Under the pieces are notes generated by a model. The model worked only from the letters and a program-made list of their open reading frames with translations, was not told the DNA's origin and searched no databases. Made by a program: the position numbers and the translations under genes. Shown here one piece after another: positions 30,932 through 63,892 of a DNA stretch of 64,000 nucleotides. Positions within the stretch are counted from its first letter, which is position 1, and each line of letters begins with the position of its first letter. Origin of the DNA: Dictyophora rubrovolvata (lineage: Eukaryota > Basidiomycota > Agaricomycetes > Phallales > Phallaceae); assembly GCA_029959195.1 (NCBI GenBank), contig CP114124.1, forward strand, positions 930,001 through 994,000. The letters run 5' to 3'.

Positions 30932-32859
30932 TTAAAGACGCGCCTGAACCCTTCCCCGGTTAACCGCGCCGCTACCCAGATACCACAAAGCGCCTTCGAC
31001 CACGTAAGCAAACCATTCCTCCACCAACTTTTGGTCGTACTTGCTTACATCGGCGAATAAAATGAACGTAAGCTGCTGGTTTAGAGCGATTGATGTCAGG
31101 TACAGTTCCTCCGGCCTGCACCGCAAATAAGGGCGGATAGTTTGGATGTGGATATCAGATATAATGTCGTCTTCGTCTTCATCTAAAGGGTAATTCGTGG
31201 GTATCAATGTATGAAGCTATATCAACTTGTTAAGACATTGTCTGGAAAACCAATAAAACACTGACATCGCCAACGGTGGAACACCCGTTTGCATAGGTAA
31301 AGTCAGGCTTGTACATGTCAACGAGTTCTTTTTCACCAGCTTCTAGCAAGGCCATCCATCGGTCCGCCATAATTTTAGATCTTTGTAAAGTCCTTGTACG
31401 CGATAATTCCGCAAACTCCACAAGTAGCGGATGCTTGAAGAATTTTTTTGATTGACGTTTGCAAGTTTCGCACCTCGAAAGAAATTGCTTTTCTGATAAT
31501 AAGGAGTCGAAGTCTGGATTCCGATGAACTTGCTCATTCGCTAGTCTAGCGATTGGCATGTACGGCAGTATTGTCTCGTACCAAGCAACTGCGATGCAGC
31601 AACGCGTCGATCCTCCGTTTTTCAGCCATTCGGGATCCAAATAGGATCGCAGATTGAAAGGGCCAAAGAAATATGTCGGTTCTCTTGTTCTGTACTCCCA
31701 TTCGGATTGAGAAATCAGCCCTTCGGCGTACAACTTGTGAGTTAGCTTGGCATGTGCCAGTTGTAGAAGGACGGGAAAGGCATTTCCAAGCGTAATCCCT
31801 TTCTGACGACAAGAGGCTAGGAGATTTCTAGTTTGCTCTCTATCAAGTTGATAGTGGAAGCTCCTGCACTTCAGAGGGTTTGAAGGGGTGTGGTCGGAAT
31901 CCCTTTGTGGTAAGGTATAGCCACCCTGAAGATAGCAAACATAAACAGACAGGTCTTTGAAAATATCGAGTAACATGTTCAACTAAACTACTCACTCGCA
32001 TCTTCAAAAGTCTTCGGTTATGTAATACCATTGCAATGGCTTTCTTCCAACGTTGAACAGGTACGGGAAGTTTTTTCGAAGGATTTAAAGGGTCTATTGA
32101 AGGGTGCAGTTCCAAGGACTCCTCCAGAACCACTGAAGGACGATATATTGGTGGAACGGTCCTGCGACACAGGATATCGAAAAATTGTTTGAATATTGAG
32201 TATACGCTTACTCCATCCATGATAGAATGTCGCATATGCACGATGACATGATGAACAGCCTTTCCGGGAGGACACTGTTTGCTCTGGGAGACAATCCAAA
32301 GTTGGCATAATAACTGATTTGAGAGTCGAGGTTCATCATTGACGGTTTTGTCGACCAGATGACAGGCCTCTTCCTCCGAGTTAACGTTGACAAAGACCAA
32401 CTCGTCTTTGGACAATGTATACAGATTTTTTTCATTTACTACAAAGTCGGCCCAGCTACCGTCCTCTCTCTCTTGTATGGTGGCCCCTAGGAGAGGGTGC
32501 AATTTCTTGATAACGAGCCATGCACCGGATACGTTTTCCCGGGAGAATAATTCATCCGCAGTTGCATGAGAGGACTCGACTGTAAACTGCGAAGCGGCTA
32601 GAAGAACAACAAATTGAGTCAACAAAGAGAACAGAAGTCAGGTGTTACCTACTATCGGAAATGCCTCTATAGACGGTGTCCCAATAGAAGGCACATTCAA
32701 CCTCTCCAAGTGGACGAGTAAATGAGTTTTTTTGACCTTGTATGCGACTCCAAACGGGCATTGAGGGAGGTGAAAAAAGTTGCGAAGATTAAAGATAGCC
32801 AGGGCAGACTTTTTATACACCAAAAATTTAATCATCACCAACAAGAGCGAATGAGACAT
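30932..32859 (-). CDS. Condensation-domain / acyltransferase-like protein
   Basis: The central block HVIVHMRHSIMDGVSVYSIF contains the HxxxDG catalytic motif (HSIMDG) of the CoA-dependent acyltransferase superfamily, which includes NRPS condensation domains and alcohol acetyltransferases. About 50 residues before it is an Asn/Glu-rich segment and after it PPIYRPSVVLEESLELHPS. A second half, FGPFNLRSYLDPEW and GGSTRCCIAVAWYE, sits where the superfamily has its DFGWG-like channel strands; I see no DFGWG. The protein ends GSGAVNRGRVQARL. There are no adenylation or carrier domains, so it is a stand-alone acyltransferase-like enzyme with unknown substrates. The 5' exon (32646-32859, from an ATG at 32859) is the least certain part. 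Confidence 0.6.
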
Positions 32860-32987
32860 CACATGAGAAAGAGATGCAGTAAAATTGGATACACCAAGGA
32901 AACAATCAGGTTATCGCCAAGCGACACGGTGGCCCCTGCCGGCTTGTGGAACTTAGCTCTTGCTAAACGAGATCTCCGTTTGTGACG

Positions 32988-33031
32988 ACGCGTTACCTGC
33001 GTGACAGTTTACCTTGCCGTAACCGACGCGT
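32988..33031. promoter_or_regulatory. Two MluI cell-cycle boxes upstream of the DNMT5-type gene
   Basis: Perfect ACGCGT hexamers lie at 32988-32993 and 33026-33031, 83 and 45 bases before the ATG at 33077. ACGCGT is the binding site of the fungal MBF (Mbp1/Swi6-type) factor that drives G1/S genes. Two copies within 44 bases next to a start codon are unlikely by chance, though single copies also occur within coding regions here. Confidence 0.6.
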
Positions 33032-33076
33032 CTATCAAAAAATCAACTTGCTTCTGTCGTCACTAGTTCCCTGGCC

Positions 33077-36000
33077 ATGACGAAAGACAGACCCGCAGCG
33101 GAACGTCCGAAAAACCAGCAGAAGCTGACCAAGTTTTTCCAGTCAGGTAAAAAATCGGAGGTCAACACGGAGTCTGACGCGTCGGACAATGAAAGCCCCA
33201 ACATCAATCAGGTCGCGTCGAAAGCAAGTAACAAACTCCCTCCCGACCAATCTGATCTTCCTCCCATCCATGATATTCCGAGCATTTTCGCCGACCTTGT
33301 TAATCGTATTCCCCAAATACAAGGCGTTGTGCAGCATGTCCGTGGCCGCAAGCTACGTGTTGCCACTATGTGTTCAGGAACGGAGTCCCCCCTTTTGGCC
33401 TTGAATCTAATTGGTAGATCTATCAAAGAAAAGTACGGAATGACATTAGAAGTCGAGCACATCTTCTCTTGCGAAATCGAACCATTCAAGCAAGCTTACA
33501 TCGAACGTAATTTTAAACCTCCAATTTTGTTTCGGGATGTCTGTGAATTGGGAGGAGAATACGCGTGAGTATCAGTGGCAACAAGTAGCTATTTTTAATA
33601 ATAACCAATTTGCAGAACGACTGCGTACGGATCTCGAATGAAGGTTCCGGGAAATGTGGATATTCTCATCGCAGGGACATCCTGTGTCGATTATTCAAAT
33701 TTGAACAACGAAAAACAGGACATTGATGCTGAGGGAGAATCCGGCCGTACTTTTCGTGGAATGATGTCCTGGGTGACAAATCATCGCCCTCCAATTGTTA
33801 TTTTGGAAAACGTTTGCGGTGCCCCTTGGGACAAAGTACAAAAATACTTTGAAGCCAAATCGTACAGTGCCGCTTACATGCGAGTGGATACCAAAAACTT
33901 CTATATCCCTCATACCCGTACTCGCGTATACCTTATGGCTGTTGACAAGAAAAAGTCGGATTTGCCCGATGATTGGAAAGAGCTCATCAAGCAGATTTAT
34001 CGGCCGGCTTCGTCGACGCTGGATGCGTTCCTTTTGCCTACGGACGATCCCCGAATCCACCAAGCTCGCGAAAAACTCGTGTTGGAAACTTCAGGGTCAA
34101 CTGATCGGAGAACTGGTAGAACTGATTGGGGACGTTGCGAATCTCGCCATCAAAGAGCCCGGCTAGAAGAGGAACTCGGCGGTAAGCGACCTTTGACTGG
34201 TTGGGACGAAGGTACGACAGTGTTTCAAACGTGGAATGAATAATATTTTTCTGAATAAGATAAGGTGGTTACTGCAATTTACCTGATTTTGCATGGAACG
34301 ATTGGGGTGTAATTCAAGTTGAGCGTGTATGGGATCTAATGGATATATCACTCCTTCGCGCTGCCAAAGACGGGGTAGACCCTTCGTATAAAACGTAAAT
34401 TCCCCTCCTTTAACTGTTTTCCCCCCATCTGAATATCAACTAGGCAAGTCTGGAATTTATCTCAAAATGTCGATAGGAATATAGGGACTCGACCGGGTAT
34501 CTGTCCCTGTTTGACACCAACGATGATTCCTTATGTCACAAATCGTGGGGGTCCCATGATAGGTTTGGAGGCTCTCTCTTTGCAGGGGCTGCCGGTGGAC
34601 GAACTTCTACTCACTCGTGAAACGGAAGATCAACTAGCGGACCTGGCGGGTAACGCTATGTCAACCACAGTTGTCGGTGCTGGTATTATGGCTGCTCTGA
34701 TTGTTGGGAAGAAACTGTTAAAAGGAAGCGACGGAGATGAGTCCATGGAGGTGGATGGCATAACTTCGCCAAAGGGAGAGAACATTATTGGCGAGGACCA
34801 ACTGCACTCGAAGCAGTTGGACCTTACGGAAACAGTTGAACATTCATTTCAAACTCTTCTCCAAAACGCCGATAATTCCTCCAGGTTATGCGAGTGCGAG
34901 GGAAGGACGGGAATGACAAATCGTTCCATCCGTCGTTGCGAAGATTGTGGGACAACTACTTGCGTTAAGTGTGGCGGACGTCCGGAACATGACTATGTTC
35001 CCATTGACTTTACCCATGCTCCACGTATCCCGCCAACCCAGTTTGCAGCGGACATCAAGACAGCATTGCCAATGTGTTTGAGCATTGGTGGCATGCGTGA
35101 AGGGTATCTTGAAGAAATGAAGAAATCGTGCCAAGCGAGCATAAGCAACGACGATTGGAAATCGTGGTGTGCCGCGGTCCTCTCTGCTTGTCAAAACGAG
35201 CTCTGCTTTTCAACCCTAAAGCGTCAGGACATATGGGTGGCAATTTATAACTCACCTACAGCCTTACTTGAGCTTCTGCTACACCCAAAACAGACTGAGT
35301 GGCGGTTATTTGGAAAGCCAGATCCGTCAGCTCCAGCTAATAGTCCCATCCGAAAGTTCCTCTCGCTTCCAGTAGCGCGATCTATTTGCAAGGGAGATTT
35401 GCTGGGTGGTAGGTGGGAATTTGGATTTCCACATAAAGTGGCATTCGATCTCGCAATCAAGGGAGTTGGAGATCTCGTACCTTCATGGGAAGCACGATTG
35501 GGATTGCAAGGAGCGGCGTTTAAGGATCGCCGAGTTCACACTCATTTAGAAGTATCAGTTCCTAGGGAATATCAATCATACTTGGATCGCGATATATCTG
35601 GGACCTACAAATACCTCCCGCAGTGTGGAAACGCAAACCATTCCCTCCACAAAAAAGTTGAAGAAACAAGCCTTCCTAACTTATTTCTTTTTATTGAACC
35701 TACCAGATGTGGCGAAGCGTCCGAAGATCCTTTTGTATTTTCTGTTAATACTAGACGATACGAATATGGGGAAACTCGACCAATCATTTGTAGTTTGGAC
35801 CCAAAATGGCGGCAAAGCGATTCGAATGAAGTCGAGACGGTGAAATGCCACGCTCCCTGTCAATGGGTTTCGGCTCCGGAAGTCAGCCTGCAGGTTGGTG
35901 CGAAGTTATTACTCCTCAGACTGGGCTAATATACCTTTCAGCTCAAATCGCGGCCGGCGGAATTTAAGGTACCTGCAAAGGAACTCGACCTCACGGTTTC

Positions 36001-39000
36001 GCAAAAGACCTGCGCCGATGCTAATGCGATCCTCATCGGTAACGTTAGACTACAAGGTCAGGCCGGACCTGAGTGGCCTCGAGGAGGGTGGAGGGATGTT
36101 GATGCCGTGCATGCACGAACAGTCTTCCAATCAATCGGATGGATCATTGAGCGTGTCAAGAATATCGGTGGCCATGTCGATCGTTGGATAAAAGTTCCTA
36201 TTGAAGATAACGGTAGTGCTTGTGAACGTTGTGCTCCTGAGCCCCCTAAGCTGCTCTGGAGGAAAATCGACCGCAAGGTTAAGGCTGTAGAAGATCAATC
36301 GCAGGCCGGTGCTTACGAGCAAGCATTGAAACATCGCCCGAGCGCATTCGTTACTCAGTTAAGACTAGATCCCGACTCTAATATTGGCAGTCTGCGTATT
36401 GGAGTCAACATGCCTTCGCTGATCCATCGCGCAGTCTCTCGTCTTCCCACTGAGTATCGTTCTGAACCGCCTACTGTATCCTGGCGTCTTACGACGAACT
36501 ATACGCCTCCTGCGAAGCTAGTTCTTCCGAAATTTACGTTAGTAGGAAATAAGCAGGATCCAGAACATAGCCAACCACCGAATTTCAAGATTCCCCTTCG
36601 TCGAGAACAACTGCGGTCTTTAAGTTGGATGATCAGACAGGAGTCTAGAGAAGCTAAGCCCTTCATTGAAGAAGAAATCGCAGAAGCTGTTTTTGAACCT
36701 TTGAACTGGCGCGCTGAAGGTCGAGCCCAACGACCTGTACGGATAAGAGGTGGCGTCCTGGCTGATGAAGTTGGTTATGGAAAAACCGCTATTACGCTCG
36801 GCCTCATCGACTGCATGCCGTACAGCAAATCGGATGCACCACCAAAGGAACTTGTTCGAGGTCGTATTTTCGTCAGAGGTACTTTGGTCGTCGTTCCACC
36901 CCATCTTACACGACAGTGGGCATCTGAGGCGAAGAAATTTTGTGGTGACACTTTTAATGTCGAAGTGATCTCTACGGCTGTCAATCTCAACTCCTTAAGT
37001 ATTGAAGACATTCAAAACGCAGACATTATTATCGTGGCTTCGAATCTCTTCAAATCTTCCGTATATTTAGCCAATTTGGAGGCTGTTTCGGCTAGCGGTC
37101 CGCTTCCCCTCGCAGAGGGAAGGTATTTCAATGCAAGGCTAAAACAACTACTGTCTTCACTCAAAAATCAAGTCGAACTGCTGAAAAAAGACGGTGCCAG
37201 TGCTGTTTTGAAGAAAATGGAGGAAGCGGAGTCGAAAGGTAAGAAAATAGGCTTCACGTTTTGTTGCTTTATTGACTTTTTCAACATCCAGGTAGTGAGC
37301 TTGAAGAAGAAACTAAGCCATTAAAGCGTCTCAAAGGCAAACAATATAGGGAGGTGAACGAAAAGAAAGCCGAAAAGGGTGCCAAGGTCAACAAGAAGCA
37401 AGTAGACGCAGTGCCTTCTAATATTACTCCCAATGCCAACCTTAAATGCGAGGTTGTGGTTCCACCTCTTCCAGAGAAAATCTCGGAAAGCCCTTCGTCG
37501 CACGACGCTCAGAGTTCGGCTGAATCTGACAAAGAGGATGTGCCTCGTGCTCAACGACGAAAGGCTGCTAAGGCCGTTATAGTGATATCGGATGAATCAA
37601 ACGACGACGAATCTGATAGTAACTACGGAGATACTAAAATGAGTCATGCAACGTCGGGATATTCAGAAGAAAGTCCCCTGTCAGAAGATGAGATGTCAGT
37701 TGATGCTAGTTCCGAGGACGAAAAGTCGCGAAAGACGAAAAATGCTCGCAAGCCGATACCAGCAAAAAAGGGATCCAAACTGTCAACGGCCGGTGATCGT
37801 GGAGGGAAAAAAAGAAAGAGCGAAGTGATGTGGTCTGACGATGAAACAGACGAGTCAAATCCAAAGAAGAAGATGAAGAAGGAAACCAAGCCGAAAGTTA
37901 GTCGAATCAAGGCCGATCCTTGGAAATTGAAGTCAACAGCGGTTCAGAAAGACTGGAAGAAGTTGCAAGCACCACCGCTTGAAATGTTCCATTTTCACCG
38001 GCTGGTCATTGACGAATACACGTATTTAGACGGAAAGACGCATTCATTGATCACCAACCTCCAAGCTACTTGTCGTTGGGTTCTCTCGGGTACACCACCC
38101 GTTCACGACTTCCCTTCACTTAAAACTATCGCTGTCTTCTTGGACATCCACTTGGGTATCGACGACGACGGCGAGGGCCAATCAGTTCAAGTTAAAAAGC
38201 GGAAACGCGAACAAACCGGTAAGTAGTTTATATGTTCTGAAGTATAATCGCTGAGTACGCGTTTAGATGTGGAAAAATTCCATTCGTTCCGTGAAGTACG
38301 TAGTCTTGAGTGGCATGCTCATAGACATCAAGTTGGGCAAGGTTTCCTCGATCAATTCGTTCGTCAGGTAAACGCAGTGATTTCTCTCTCTCAATATGTA
38401 CACAGTCTTACACCTCTTGAAGAATAAACCCGAAATTGACGAAATCCCTGCCACGGAGCATATAGAAACGGTATTCCTTCCTGCGGCTGAGCGAGCTATT
38501 TACTTGGAGCTCGACCATCATCTTCGCGCGCTTGACATGACAATTAAGCGTGGAAGAAAGAACGAAAGTGACCGAGAGAAGCGACTGCAGAAGTCTTTGG
38601 GCGAGAGCAAGTTAGTCATTTCATAGTTTCGGCATACTTCCACTCACACTTCCCCTCACTTTTTACTAGCTCAGCAGAAGAGGCGCTTCTCAAACGTTGT
38701 TCGCATTTCGATCTTGAAACATCCGACAAGGAGAACGCGATGAAAGCCTGCGAGATTATTGTAAAGGACCGTACGGCTCAACTAGACGAATGCCGGGTAG
38801 ACTTGCTAAAGAACGTTGGAAAAGCACTTGAAATGCAGAAACGGATTGGCAAGACGGAAGATGAAAGCTTGTTCCAAGAATGGTTGCGGGTTACTCGTGC
38901 GGAGGGTGTGGGTGACAGAGACGCCACCGATATCGTTCTGGATATTTTGCAAGAAGCAGGTGCTGACGCACAAGGTCCATTTAAGACAACTGCAAATACC

Positions 39001-40012
39001 GCGGGGAATGATAAAGCAAAAGCATCTGGGAGATCTGCGAAGCCTGCAAAGGGAAAGGGCAAGGAAAAGTCGCAAGATATCGGCGACCTTATTTGGGAGC
39101 ACCGAGAACATGCTCACGACCTGCGCAAATTGACGAAAGAGTTAGTTGGTCGGGTGCGCTCCTTACGGTATTTTACAGTCGTGCGTGATCTGCAGAAGCA
39201 GGAACAGAATGAAGCGAAACCTGTCAATTGCCCGCACTGCAGGAGACAATCATTACCGATAGCAGATATTGGTGTTTTAAGCTCTTGTGGCCATATGGGG
39301 TGCATAAAATGCGTTATCGCTTGTGCCGAACAAGAAGAATGCGTATACAGCACAACCGGAGATTGTAATGCAGCTGCCAGAGTGCTAAATGTCGTCAAAG
39401 CTGAGACGCTGGGTGTTGACGATGTTACGCGCGATGGGAAGGGTAAACACTTTGGTCGCAAATTGGAGCAGGTCGTTGATCTGATTAAGTGAGTAGCATA
39501 ACTTCACGGTATACGGATATGGAGCTGATTTTTTGTGTCAAGAAACCGAGTCCCCAAATCAGAACGTGTCCTGGTATTTGTTCAATTCCCAGATTTGATG
39601 AAAAAAGTCAACGAAGCCTTGACCGCCAATAAAATCAAATTTCTCGAGATCAAGGGTACGGCGACAATGAAGAGCAAAAATCTTGAGACGTTCCAAAACG
39701 AGACAGCTGAATCGCAACGAGTTCTTCTTCTCAATGTAACCGATGAAAGTGCCAGCGGAGCGTACGTCTGCTTCCTCTTTCCAATGTTATGCCGCTTACA
39801 GTTTGAACAGTAACCTCACCTCCGCGAATCACGCCATATTCCTCTCCCCATTACTCACACCCACGCAGGAGATATACGATGCTTGTGAGACTCAGGCTAT
39901 CGGACGTCTGCGGCGATTCGGACAGACGAAAATGGTTCATATTTGGCGATTCTTAACACTCGACACCATTGACACAGAAGTGTACGAAAAGCGAAGTGGT
40001 CAAAAATTGTAA
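33077..40012 (+). CDS. DNMT5-type DNA cytosine methyltransferase with RING and SNF2 ATPase
   Basis: About 2,100 residues over some eleven short introns. Residues 14-21 (QQKLTKFF) are a perfect PIP box. The methyltransferase follows: motif I VATMCSGTESPLLAL (about 95-109), catalytic loop GTSCVDYSNLN (Cys about 186), motif VI ILENVCG (Glu about 227), HTRTRVYLMAV, and a late motif LADLAGNAMSTTVVGAGIMA. Next are a Cys-rich putative zinc site (CECEGRTGMTNRSIRRCEDC), the ATPase P-loop LADEVGYGKTAITLGL (about 36755-36805), a basic/acidic insert with VIVISDE, a DEYT box (FHRLVIDEYTYLDGKT), a RING (CPHCRRQ...CGHMGCIKC) near 39230-39360, and helicase lobe 2 ending GRLRRFGQTKMVHIWRF. This order is that of fungal DNMT5, an ATP-dependent maintenance CpG methylase in Cryptococcus. 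I see no chromodomain at the N-terminus. Confidence 0.9.
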
Positions 40013-59844: not shown

Positions 59845-62800
59845 TTATAAATTACGAGAACGCCATAATGCCGCTTCTTCAATATTATCCTGGGATGTTG
59901 GCGATGACATGGCTGCATAAGTTAGGAGGTTCGAATCAAAGACAAAAAGCTCCTTGGACGTTTCTTTGTCCAACTCTTGTCTCCAAGATTCCAACGCATC
60001 CATAAGCCATTGCAAACATTCCCGTTTGTCAGGATCATCCCCTGTATCAACAAATATGACACATTTTTTTGCTTGCTCAAACTGTTTGTCATTAGGTTCA
60101 AAGACAACACCGTCTACTTCAACACGACAGCCGCAAATGATCAGAAGAGAGTATATAACTCCAATACGCTTGTCGGGCGAGATAATATCGGATGCTGGTG
60201 GCCTTGTTGTTGGTCGTTTCCCTTGTCGATCTTTGGGAATCCAGACATAAGCGTCTTGAATAAATTTAATGATAGGAGATGCTTTCCAATGATAACGACT
60301 CGTATGTTTGTAGGCGTCTGAGCCATCAGCGCCCATCTCCGTAGAAGCATCGAGTTCGAAGGATAAATTACTGCCGTCCGAGAGTTCTGGGCTTCTGTCG
60401 GGGTACTTCTTGGTGCTTGCCTCGCTGTGCGGTTTAACTGCTAGCATCTGGGAAATGTCTACCACAACAACTTGATTGTTACGGGGCGTTCGCGATCCCG
60501 GAGACATGGGAATCATCTTCTTCATCGTAGCCACCAGACTACTACTGTTGAATCCCTTCACATGGGTTTGTGGCGTTGACAGTGCAGCGGCAGCAAGAGA
60601 ACCCTCCAGGTTAAATTGATCCTTTTGATCTTGATATCTTTTGCGTTTTGATGAATAATTCTCCATTTCAAGTTTTCTCTTGAGTTCATTGTGTTGCTTT
60701 CGGAGGGCTCCTCCAGTGCTGGGGCTGTAATGTAGATTTTCCAAATTGAGCAATCTCTTATACCACTGCCCAAAGCGGGTCTCAATAACAGAGCGATCTC
60801 GAGGAGCCACTCGTGTGTGAGTTCCCCATATGCTTTCGACACTTCGATTAGCCCAATCGTCGCGTGATTCATGTCCAATAGCTGATCTTGCCAGACGCTG
60901 AAATTCTTCTAAATTAACACCTGGAAAAAATGAATAGATAATCATCATATGAGTTTTCGTAACAATCAGCGCACCCGCTGTCCAAGGTCTTTCGGCAGGG
61001 CGCCAAACTTTAGTTAAACGAGGGAAACGAAGAGAATAATGCTGTTCGGTCAAATCAGTCTATTTGCAATCTTATCAGACATTGCATACCAGCGTGCCAG
61101 AGTCCTTAGTAAAACCAGCTCCGTAGAATTCACCAAGCAAAGGTTGGAGGAACATGACAGTAGGTTTAGCACAAAGTGCACTGGGAAGCGAAAAATCATA
61201 TGAAAGACCTTCCATCTGTAGAGATGTAAATGAGGAATAAGGAATTTAATAAAAACACAGACCCGATTAATGGAGTAGGTGTAATATCCAGAGTGTTTGA
61301 TGTAAAAATTCAACGATTCCAGCGCTTCTCTGCTCAATCCATATTCAACTACAAATAATACTTGAAAATCGGTACGGTCTACCTGCTATCTGGTAAATAC
61401 AGACAACAACTAGAATTTTGAGTCATACTTTTGTGGGACTTGCTTTTGGTGCAGCGACGAAGAATGTAGTGAAAGTCTGCGGTGCCACTAGTGCCAATTC
61501 TTAGCGCAAAGATCATCTTGAAATGCTTATCCGTACCTCGAAGTTCTCGAGCTCTAGTTTTATTCCAACTCGCACCTGTAAGGACAAGGTCTACAGTATC
61601 TCCATAGCCAGGGATATAGTCTCTTTTCAGCTAAAAACACCAAATTAGTTCAGGTCATTATATCATTGACATGGTATTTACCTTCACCCACGGCTGCGCG
61701 CTATCATTATAAGTGGAGGTAGCACCTTTGAGCACGATTCCTGCTCAACATATCAAGTGGATTAACGACTGAGAGTACTTGTGAAGATACCTTCTTGATA
61801 GTCTGCTATATGTTCAGCAAAAATACGAGCTACACTTTCAATAGCGTTATAGCTAAGATCGACCCTGTCACGTTGACTGAGCGATGCAAATCCTAAAATG
61901 GGGCTAACGAGGCTTTCGAGTTGTGCTCGACGGTTCTGATAGCCCTCTTCGAGCAAACTACGACCATCTATAAACAGGACATCAAAAAAGACCACTTTCA
62001 AGTGCCGATTGGAACAGTCAGAGGCATTAGATATTAAGGAATCCTCGACGTTCCTATAGGACTATGAACTTCAAACTCATTCATCAAGGAGACACTTACT
62101 CTAAACATGAGTTAGCGCCGCTAGTTTGAGTGCTCTGACTTTCGCAAGGTGTCTCGGCCCCTTTTTTGGTGTGTTGCTTAGCACTCCTGATACCTAAAGC
62201 GGTGCTCGCAATAAGGCTGCGAATTCTCCAAAATTCTGAGTGAACAAAGTCAAAACAGGCTATGGGAAATCAACGCGGAAAATACCATCTATAGCACCCT
62301 CCCTTTCAGAGTAAGCTACCATTTCGGCATCAAGGATGACAGTATGTTCAAACTTGGGGGAACTAGACTTGATGCGTGAGAGCAGCAGAGGATCCGAGCA
62401 ATCACTAAGAGGCAAACTCAAGGCAGCGCGAATGATTCTGAAGTTTTGATCTCAGCCTAATATTTTTGGTGTGTCCACGACCGACGTACGAGTGGGTACC
62501 CATCCGATCTAACGTAGAATCCCGTTTACTTTTGCTGAATATAGTGATTTGCTGATCGTAGGACTTGGATAAATCTATATGGATTTGCATCCTATATACG
62601 GTCACGAATACTGGAGGAATAGATGTGTCTTAATAATTACCTTTCGCCATCATACTTCATCTCAGCCCATATTTCTTGCCGTTCTTTAAAATATTGCAAG
62701 GCATGTGACAGACTTCGACCCTTTTGGCTTTTAGGGATCTCTCTTGTGTATTAATATGACAAACAGTTGTAGAATAAATTTATTCCTTACTTCAATTGGA

Positions 62801-63708
62801 ATACCTAGCACCGGGGAACAAACCTTGGTAACGAATTGGGAGCCATTGTCTTCGAGTGCATCACATGTAGCATCCAGTGTGGCGCGCAGGCGGTAAATTT
62901 TTGGCATGGATGGGTGCCATGCACGCATGACTTCCCATTTTGTCAAGAAATCCATCTCGTTGCTCTTGTGGTGCAACAAAGCCCTGGTAGTATTGATCTC
63001 GCACACAGGATATAAAACGGGTCGTAAATCTTTCAATATAATTTGAGTCATAAATTTGGCTTCGGAGGGGCTCATGTTCGCAAAGATATCCTTGAGAACT
63101 GATATTCGCGGGCGGGACTGATCGCGTGTCTCTCTGATGTCTGAATGGGAATACCCAGACATAGATGCAAGGACATCTAATAGTCGATCAATTTCGTGAA
63201 ATGTAAGAGAGCGAGAGTTTCCCTGAAAAGAGTTGAAGTACATAAAAAATCGGGACGCGGACGATTTACCGAGTGTCTTAGAAGTAGAGCCTTTTCGACT
63301 TCAATTCCTAAGCAACCGACATTTGTTCTCGCTTCCGCATCAGACCAACCCATGAGGCGTTTTCCAGCACCTTTTTCGTCGATTGGGAGTGAAAATATTT
63401 GTACGAGAGACTTTGCTAAGGTAGTTTCTTGAATGTTATACCGGCGACGTACGTCTTCTTCTGGAAACAGCAAGCGAAAGAATATTTTACAAGTACTGGT
63501 TGGAATGGAGGAATGTTGTTTCAGTGTGAGTATCCATTTTTTGACCAAATCCAGACTTGAAGATGAAGATGATTTAAACCGATCCGCTTTAACATGAGAT
63601 ATGCTGTTCAATAATTTCACAAAACTGAAGATCCAGTCAGATTAACAAAAGACGGGTGTTATGCAAGGCGTACTCAGTGAACAGGATATCAGTTTCACAG
63701 ACTGACAT
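59845..63708 (-). CDS. Fungal ATP-dependent DNA ligase (ligase IV-like)
   Basis: A first exon (ATG at 63708, MSVCETDILFT) joins FVKLLNSISHVKADRFKSSS and the ligase N-terminal domain. The nucleotidyl-transfer motifs are intact: AEMKYDGERMQIHI with the KxDG lysine, VILDAEMVAYSE, FFDVLFIDGRSLLEEGY, GIVLKGATSTYND and KLKRDYIPGYGDTVDLVL. The C-terminal half (HYSLRFPRLTKVWRPAERPW, then VNLEEFQRLARSA) matches a fungal subfamily of ligase IV-like enzymes whose role is poorly defined. The C-terminus (CRVEVDGVVFEPNDKQFEQA) may be one BRCT repeat; I do not see the tandem BRCT pair that binds XRCC4 in ligase IV. About twelve introns. Non-homologous end joining is a plausible but unproven role. Confidence 0.75.
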
Positions 63709-63892
63709 GCCCGATGTAGGTAGACAGCTTGAGTGGCGCGAACAAATCTGAGACGCGTACACAGGCGCACACAGGCGTACACTCGCCGCAACGCGTCAGT
63801 GCTCCCACGCACACCCATAATATGTTTTTTCTCATATACACATAACTGTGAACGTTGACAACACAAAAAGCAACTGGATAGGAGTCTAACTA
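63709..63892. promoter_or_regulatory. DNA ligase promoter with two MluI cell-cycle boxes
   Basis: ACGCGT occurs at 63753-63758 and 63791-63796, 44 and 82 bases upstream of the ligase ATG at 63708. An E2F/MBF-like TTCGCGCC lies at 63734-63741 on the minus strand. Short ACACAGGCG repeats lie between the boxes. The site pair mirrors the one before the DNMT5-type gene. Binding by MBF is inferred. Confidence 0.55.

Follow-up and report, generated by a model that had tools for sequence, protein, structure and literature searches.

How the DNA methylase DNMT5 locates hemimethylated CpGs is described as only partly resolved in a 2026 review (PMC13297926). A gene of the agaricomycete Dictyophora rubrovolvata suggests a possible answer. 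It occupies positions 33077-40012 on the plus strand of a 64,000-nucleotide stretch of contig CP114124.1 (positions 930,001 to 994,000), which is referred to here as the window. The encoded protein is a DNMT5-type methylase whose N-terminal tail carries QQKLTKFF, an exact match to the QxxLxxFF form of the PCNA-interacting peptide (PIP) box, and two ACGCGT boxes precede the start codon. On balance, the sequence favors a DNMT5 docked on PCNA through QQKLTKFF, tethered at newly replicated DNA and made at G1/S. In the passages on DNMT5 consulted in the open-access literature, a PIP box in this enzyme is not described.

The gene model runs from an ATG at 33077 to a TAA ending at 40012 and encodes 2138 residues in 11 exons (33077-33564, 33616-34211, 34265-34394, 34444-35893, 35942-37238, 37292-38218, 38267-38367, 38423-38610, 38670-39488, 39543-39761, and 39811-40012). 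Its splice sites, picked by hand from the genomic sequence alone, define 10 GT-AG introns and leave zero internal stops. In a phmmer search of the PDB, the best match was Cryptococcus neoformans Dnmt5 (7r76_A, 2348 residues; 1748 bits), which aligned in two stretches covering residues 59-1359 and 1502-2133 of the query. The same protein is present in the entries 7r77, 7r78, and 7t02, under the entry name DNA repair protein Rad8. A 297-residue methylase segment is 66% identical between the two proteins, and TSCVDYSNLN is the same in both. Pfam profiles detected the methylase (PF00145, 46.4 bits), followed by the SNF2 ATPase (PF00176, 53.8 bits) and Helicase_C (PF00271, 28.4 bits), and the SNF2 motifs, the helicase end, and a RING-type region could be aligned to 7r76. 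The Cryptococcus match, the segment identity, the aligned motor and RING-type parts, and the Pfam domains identify the gene as a DNMT5, complete in this DNA, in line with the DNMT5-type methylase of the preliminary description. Enzymes of this kind couple a maintenance CpG methylase to an SNF2 motor; CpG maintenance activity in this species is presumed. The methylase motifs are distributed over 33362..34672 on the plus strand and comprise I (residue 96), IV (TSCVDYSNLN, residue 184), VI (ILENVC, residue 225), VIII, IX, and X (LAGNAMSTTV, residue 472), in the usual numbering of the family.

Motif I is thus preceded by a short N-terminus, the roughly 90 residues noticed earlier. The first 58 residues (33077..33250, plus strand) form a tail that precedes the stretch alignable with Cryptococcus Dnmt5 and is basic near the PIP box. 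QQKLTKFF itself, at residues 14-21 (33116..33139, plus strand), agrees with QxxLxxFF at every position, as had been claimed, and likewise with the general pattern Q-x-x-aliphatic-x-x-aromatic-aromatic. It is the sole match in the whole protein, even to the loosest PIP pattern tried. Given the composition of the protein, the strict form is expected by chance 2.2e-4 times in the first 92 residues. Shuffling these residues 200,000 times yielded it in 43 cases, against 214 cases for Qxx[LIMV]xx[FY][FY] and 491 for the loosest pattern.

The surroundings of the motif are in keeping with a peptide that binds PCNA. The net charge is +5 across residues 9-26, that is, the PIP box and five flanking residues on each side. 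Disorder-promoting residues make up a fraction of 0.86 of residues 1-58, and a single-sequence AlphaFold2 model, of low confidence (mean predicted local distance difference test score 54.5), placed no helix or strand ahead of residue 67. The PIP boxes of MSH6 and UNG2 are N-terminal. In one study, reportedly by Prestel and colleagues, positively charged flanks increase the affinity for PCNA, and most PIP motifs are found in disordered regions (PMC6881253). The FEN1, MSH6, and UNG2 peptides given in that source have Q, L, F, and F spaced as in QQKLTKFF, but none of them belongs to a DNA methylase. When residues 1-42 of DNMT5 were searched against the PDB, only three matches came up, all of them weak (E 0.85, 1.8, and 8.2), with no PCNA-bound peptide among them.

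PIP boxes of the same kind occur elsewhere in the genome. A profile search for XPG_I gave seven matches, six of which, in loci of about 3 kb, were scanned for PIP boxes (L038 on the gene strand only). Judged by reading frame, three of the six contain a believable PIP box: QGRLDGFF in L042, which we take to be FEN1-like, QGTLNNFF in L038, presumably XPG-like, and QASILQYF in L040. The first two are of the strict form. No PIP match was found in L039, while a match in L041 was set aside for its position in a 21-residue frame and QSIIPTFH in L043 for being antisense to the XPG_I match. Spliced by hand, the PCNA of this genome retains LGIP in its linker and YYLAPKI in its tail. In this splice, PCNA (L014/L036, G000:C5 about 1788320-1791565) has 365 residues, and an acidic and basic run in one open frame, residues 187-300, replaces residues 188-192 of 6qh1. 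The motif is canonical and similar to the PIP boxes of two XPG_I loci, and the N-terminal tail that holds it is basic and devoid of predicted secondary structure; recruitment to PCNA is accordingly the best reading of QQKLTKFF, the binding itself being predicted.

The promoter points in the same direction, independently of the peptide. ACGCGT, the MluI cell-cycle box and an MBF-type G1/S element, occurs as an exact match at 32988..32993 and again at 33026..33031; from the first base of each box to the A of the ATG, the distances are 89 and 51 bases, respectively. The window contains 19 copies of ACGCGT, whereas the expected number lies between 10.7, on a dinucleotide basis, and 12.4, on a mononucleotide basis. 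When it was divided into 6380 overlapping segments of 200 bases, at least one copy was present in 334 (5.2%) and at least two in 35 (0.55%), the DNMT5 pair included. Of seven replication genes checked in this genome, four have ACGCGT in the 200 bases upstream of the start codon: PCNA (-37), MCM5 (-64 and -46), MCM7 (-73 and -42), and MCM2 (-151). A binomial estimate for at least four of seven genes at 5.2% is 2.3e-4, with start codons chosen by eye and MCM names and starts taken from open reading frames (ORFs). A partial second copy of MCM6 (L035), with no ACGCGT in its 5.5 kb, was excluded from the seven, and its inclusion gives four of eight. This copy (G000:C9:1606500-1612000) is a partial duplicate of the MCM6 region in L032, and the adjoining sequence is duplicated too.

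The genome has two matches to KilA-N (APSES-type), the kind of DNA-binding domain found in MBF. In C. neoformans, also a basidiomycete, ACGCGT is reported to be enriched in the promoters of periodic DNA-replication genes (PMC5137879). The ACGCGT pair lends indirect support to a use of DNMT5 in S phase, and expression in that phase is predicted from it. Recruitment to PCNA at the fork, as suggested in the preliminary description, is supported in part, through the canonical N-terminal motif, the basic tail, the same-genome PIP boxes, and the ACGCGT pair, but PCNA binding is still an expectation. DNMT5 exon 1 adds two further copies of ACGCGT, at 33177 and 33561 (the latter extending past the exon end), so that 580 bases contain four in all. 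The only other pair in the window less than 60 bases apart, at 63753-63796, is likewise spaced by 38 bases. It is situated just upstream of the minus-strand DNA ligase ORFs 63180-63641 and 62734-63300, which match PF04675.

From the gene, its domain order, the PIP motif, the undetected chromodomain, and the ACGCGT boxes, all observed in this DNA, a sequence of events can be proposed. On DNA that has just been replicated, QQKLTKFF would insert into the hydrophobic pocket of PCNA, the basic flanks assisting, and this tether would place DNMT5 behind the fork, where hemimethylated CpGs arise. The ATP-driven SNF2/methylase core would then check the hemimethylated CpG and copy the mark by methyl transfer. 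The two ACGCGT boxes would drive G1/S transcription and thus supply DNMT5 in time. PCNA binding, fork recruitment, S-phase transcription, and CpG maintenance are expected here by analogy with Cryptococcus Dnmt5 and the biology of PIP boxes. A wider and more tentative proposal, to which we give somewhat less than even credence, is that agaricomycete DNMT5 acts as a single, self-contained maintenance machine coupled to replication. The PIP box would tie the methylase, an ATP-driven proofreading motor, and the RING to PCNA, MBF would have the protein made at G1/S with PCNA and MCM, and chromodomain targeting would be a Tremellomycete alternative.

Several points weigh against docking on PCNA. Section 2.4 of the 2026 review states that DNMT5 acts without dependence on the replication apparatus (PMC13297926), so that a PCNA-docked DNMT5 would be a testable contradiction. 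The PIP box was read from the sequence of one genome, short motifs occur by chance, and QQKLTKFF was picked after the whole window had been read. The ACGCGT pair was spotted by eye and tested afterwards, which makes its statistics post hoc. As ACGCGT is absent from the 300 bases upstream of the start in MCM3, MCM4, and MCM6, and is common in the window, it is neither necessary nor diagnostic. The observed/expected ratio of CpG in the window is 1.02; with CpG thus undepleted, the window itself gives no sign of methylation.

Scans that used exons from the window, or the aligned methylases of the window and Cryptococcus, returned no fungal relative. A viral contig (IMGVR_UViG_3300033485_000051, L037) encodes a protein 28% identical to the methylase segment of DNMT5; it is uninformative on the N-terminus and was not used. 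In the PDB alignments Cryptococcus Dnmt5 is shown only after residue 283 of its chain, and the comparison with that enzyme applies to the remainder.

The octapeptide could instead match by chance, within a basic tail whose sole role is nuclear import or DNA binding, with targeting achieved by hemimethylated DNA itself, an SRA protein, or another adaptor. An SRA-domain match is indeed present in the genome, and QQKLTKFF is known from the sequence of a single species. The strict form is also found once in another frame of the window: the six-frame ORFs of at least 60 residues contain two matches in 37,743 positions, the second overlapping a DNMT5 exon. The rarity of the strict form among the shuffled N-termini, the N-terminal position with its basic flanks, and the ACGCGT boxes in the promoter all argue against coincidence, which we judge unlikely but deserving of serious consideration.

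Another possibility is that the PIP box serves an activity like that of Rad5 or HLTF. The SNF2-RING part would act on PCNA or chromatin at forks, in ubiquitin or SUMO signaling, and methylation would be one output. The C-terminal part of DNMT5 gave the next PDB match, to Rad5 (6l8n), at 42 bits. The SNF2 motor (36764..38100, plus strand), which is interrupted by a charged insert, includes the Walker A motif DEVGYGKT (residue 1163), DEYTY (within VIDEYTY, residues 1559-1565), and LSGTPP (residue 1585). Toward the C-terminus is QAIGRLRR (residues 2100-2107; 39893..39916, plus strand), seen in the sequence and in the alignment to 7r76, which corresponds to helicase motif VI. Between motor and end, a Cys/His cluster with C3HC4 spacing (residues 1913-1958; 39229..39366, plus strand) marks a putative RING-type region, which is aligned in 7r76 and has no Pfam RING match. 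The insert also carries the stretch VIVISDESNDDE (residues 1416-1427; 37576..37611, plus strand), which resembles a SUMO-interaction motif under the usual pattern. A PIP box together with a SUMO-interaction motif is a combination known from readers of SUMO-PCNA. The E3 activity and SUMO binding are putative, however, the latter motif being a pattern match only, and by far the closest relative in the PDB is the methylase Dnmt5. A primary Rad5- or HLTF-like function is thus improbable.

Still less probable is a PIP degron, in which binding of PCNA by QQKLTKFF would flag DNMT5 for destruction by CRL4-Cdt2 in S phase. The T at position 5 and the K at +4 past the motif agree with part of the degron rule, but position 6 is K where that rule wants D, and S phase is when a maintenance methylase is required, not when it should be destroyed.

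The N-terminus of DNMT5 had also been described as lacking a visible chromodomain, and the searches agree. In the DNMT5 protein, Pfam at E up to 10 reported solely SNF2, methylase, and Helicase_C and no chromodomain, in a search whose filters let few matches above about 0.1 through. A genome-wide Pfam search for the chromodomain (E up to 1) yielded 43 matches, and none falls within the window (C8:930001-994000). With the same limit of E up to 1, the upstream plus-strand ORFs 32722-32982 and 32967-33077 match no Pfam family. A divergent neighbor on the minus strand, at about 31230-32910, probably starts near 32.85 kb by ORF reading, so that little space, some 230 bases, is left for a further DNMT5 exon. 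This neighbor shows a weak likeness to condensation-domain proteins (PF00668, E 0.0065), its 15.7 bits falling short of the 30.6 set as cut-off. In view of these results, and in spite of a putative 3' splice site (cttctgtcgtcactag), read from the sequence immediately ahead of the ATG, it is hardly credible that the true protein starts upstream with a chromodomain exon missed in the genomic reading. As to a route through HP1, DNMT5 contains the PxVxL-like sequences PEVSL (residue 883) and PIVIL (residue 222, within the methylase). A profile search for the chromoshadow domain gave no match anywhere, controls included, and is hence uninformative on this route.

The Cryptococcus and Aspergillus enzymes put the absence of the chromodomain in perspective. 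The present protein and Cryptococcus Dnmt5 have in common the methylase, the putative RING-type region, the SNF2 motor, and the order of these parts. Cryptococcus Dnmt5 has some 225 extra residues before the aligned part; the present protein has a 58-residue tail with a PIP box there. A chromodomain is described for DNMT5 of Cryptococcus and Kwoniella in a figure legend (PMC11185503, S11 Fig), and none was detected here. DNMT5 has been found in 88 of 94 Aspergilli, where it is described, in the sections available, as methylase, SNF2, and Helicase_C, the same Pfam architecture as in the present gene; those descriptions name no chromodomain and mention no PIP box (PMC9676040). An N-terminal chromodomain is apparently not a trait of the whole DNMT5 family. 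Since none is named for the Aspergillus enzyme, its absence in this DNMT5 is probably ordinary, and there may therefore be nothing for which the PIP box is a substitute. The proposal of a PIP box instead of a chromodomain thus holds for the presence of the one and the non-detection of the other, whereas the contrast between them is weaker than claimed.

Mammalian DNMT1 has a PIP box in its N-terminus. If PCNA docking is the right reading, the likeness between the two would be that of clamp-tethered maintenance methylases. The present protein is not a member of the DNMT1 group but a DNMT5-type methylase with an SNF2 motor. Two loci of this genome, L010 and L012, are labeled DNMT1-like on the basis of a methylase search, ORF reading, and what we take to be the features of that group. 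On their gene strands no PIP-like motif was found by a scan in frame, which an intron-split motif would escape (L010 had none in six frames and L012 one, on the opposite strand). Neither gene has ACGCGT within 300 bases upstream of the chosen start, and copies occur elsewhere in the loci (2661 and 7559 in L010; 6077 and 6807 in L012). The genome's one SRA-domain match is at G000:C3:1852858 (L013) and may represent a UHRF1-like adaptor. In the agaricomycete proposal, the DNMT1-like loci contrast with DNMT5 in that PIP-like motifs on the gene strand and near-start ACGCGT were both not found there.

If DNMT5 docks on PCNA as proposed, the PIP box and the G1/S promoter boxes would provide a simple and testable answer, for mushrooms, to the question of how this enzyme is targeted. 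The independence of DNMT5 from the replication apparatus would then be wrong for the agaricomycete branch, and DNMT1 and DNMT5, two distinct maintenance methylases, would both have come to use the same clamp.

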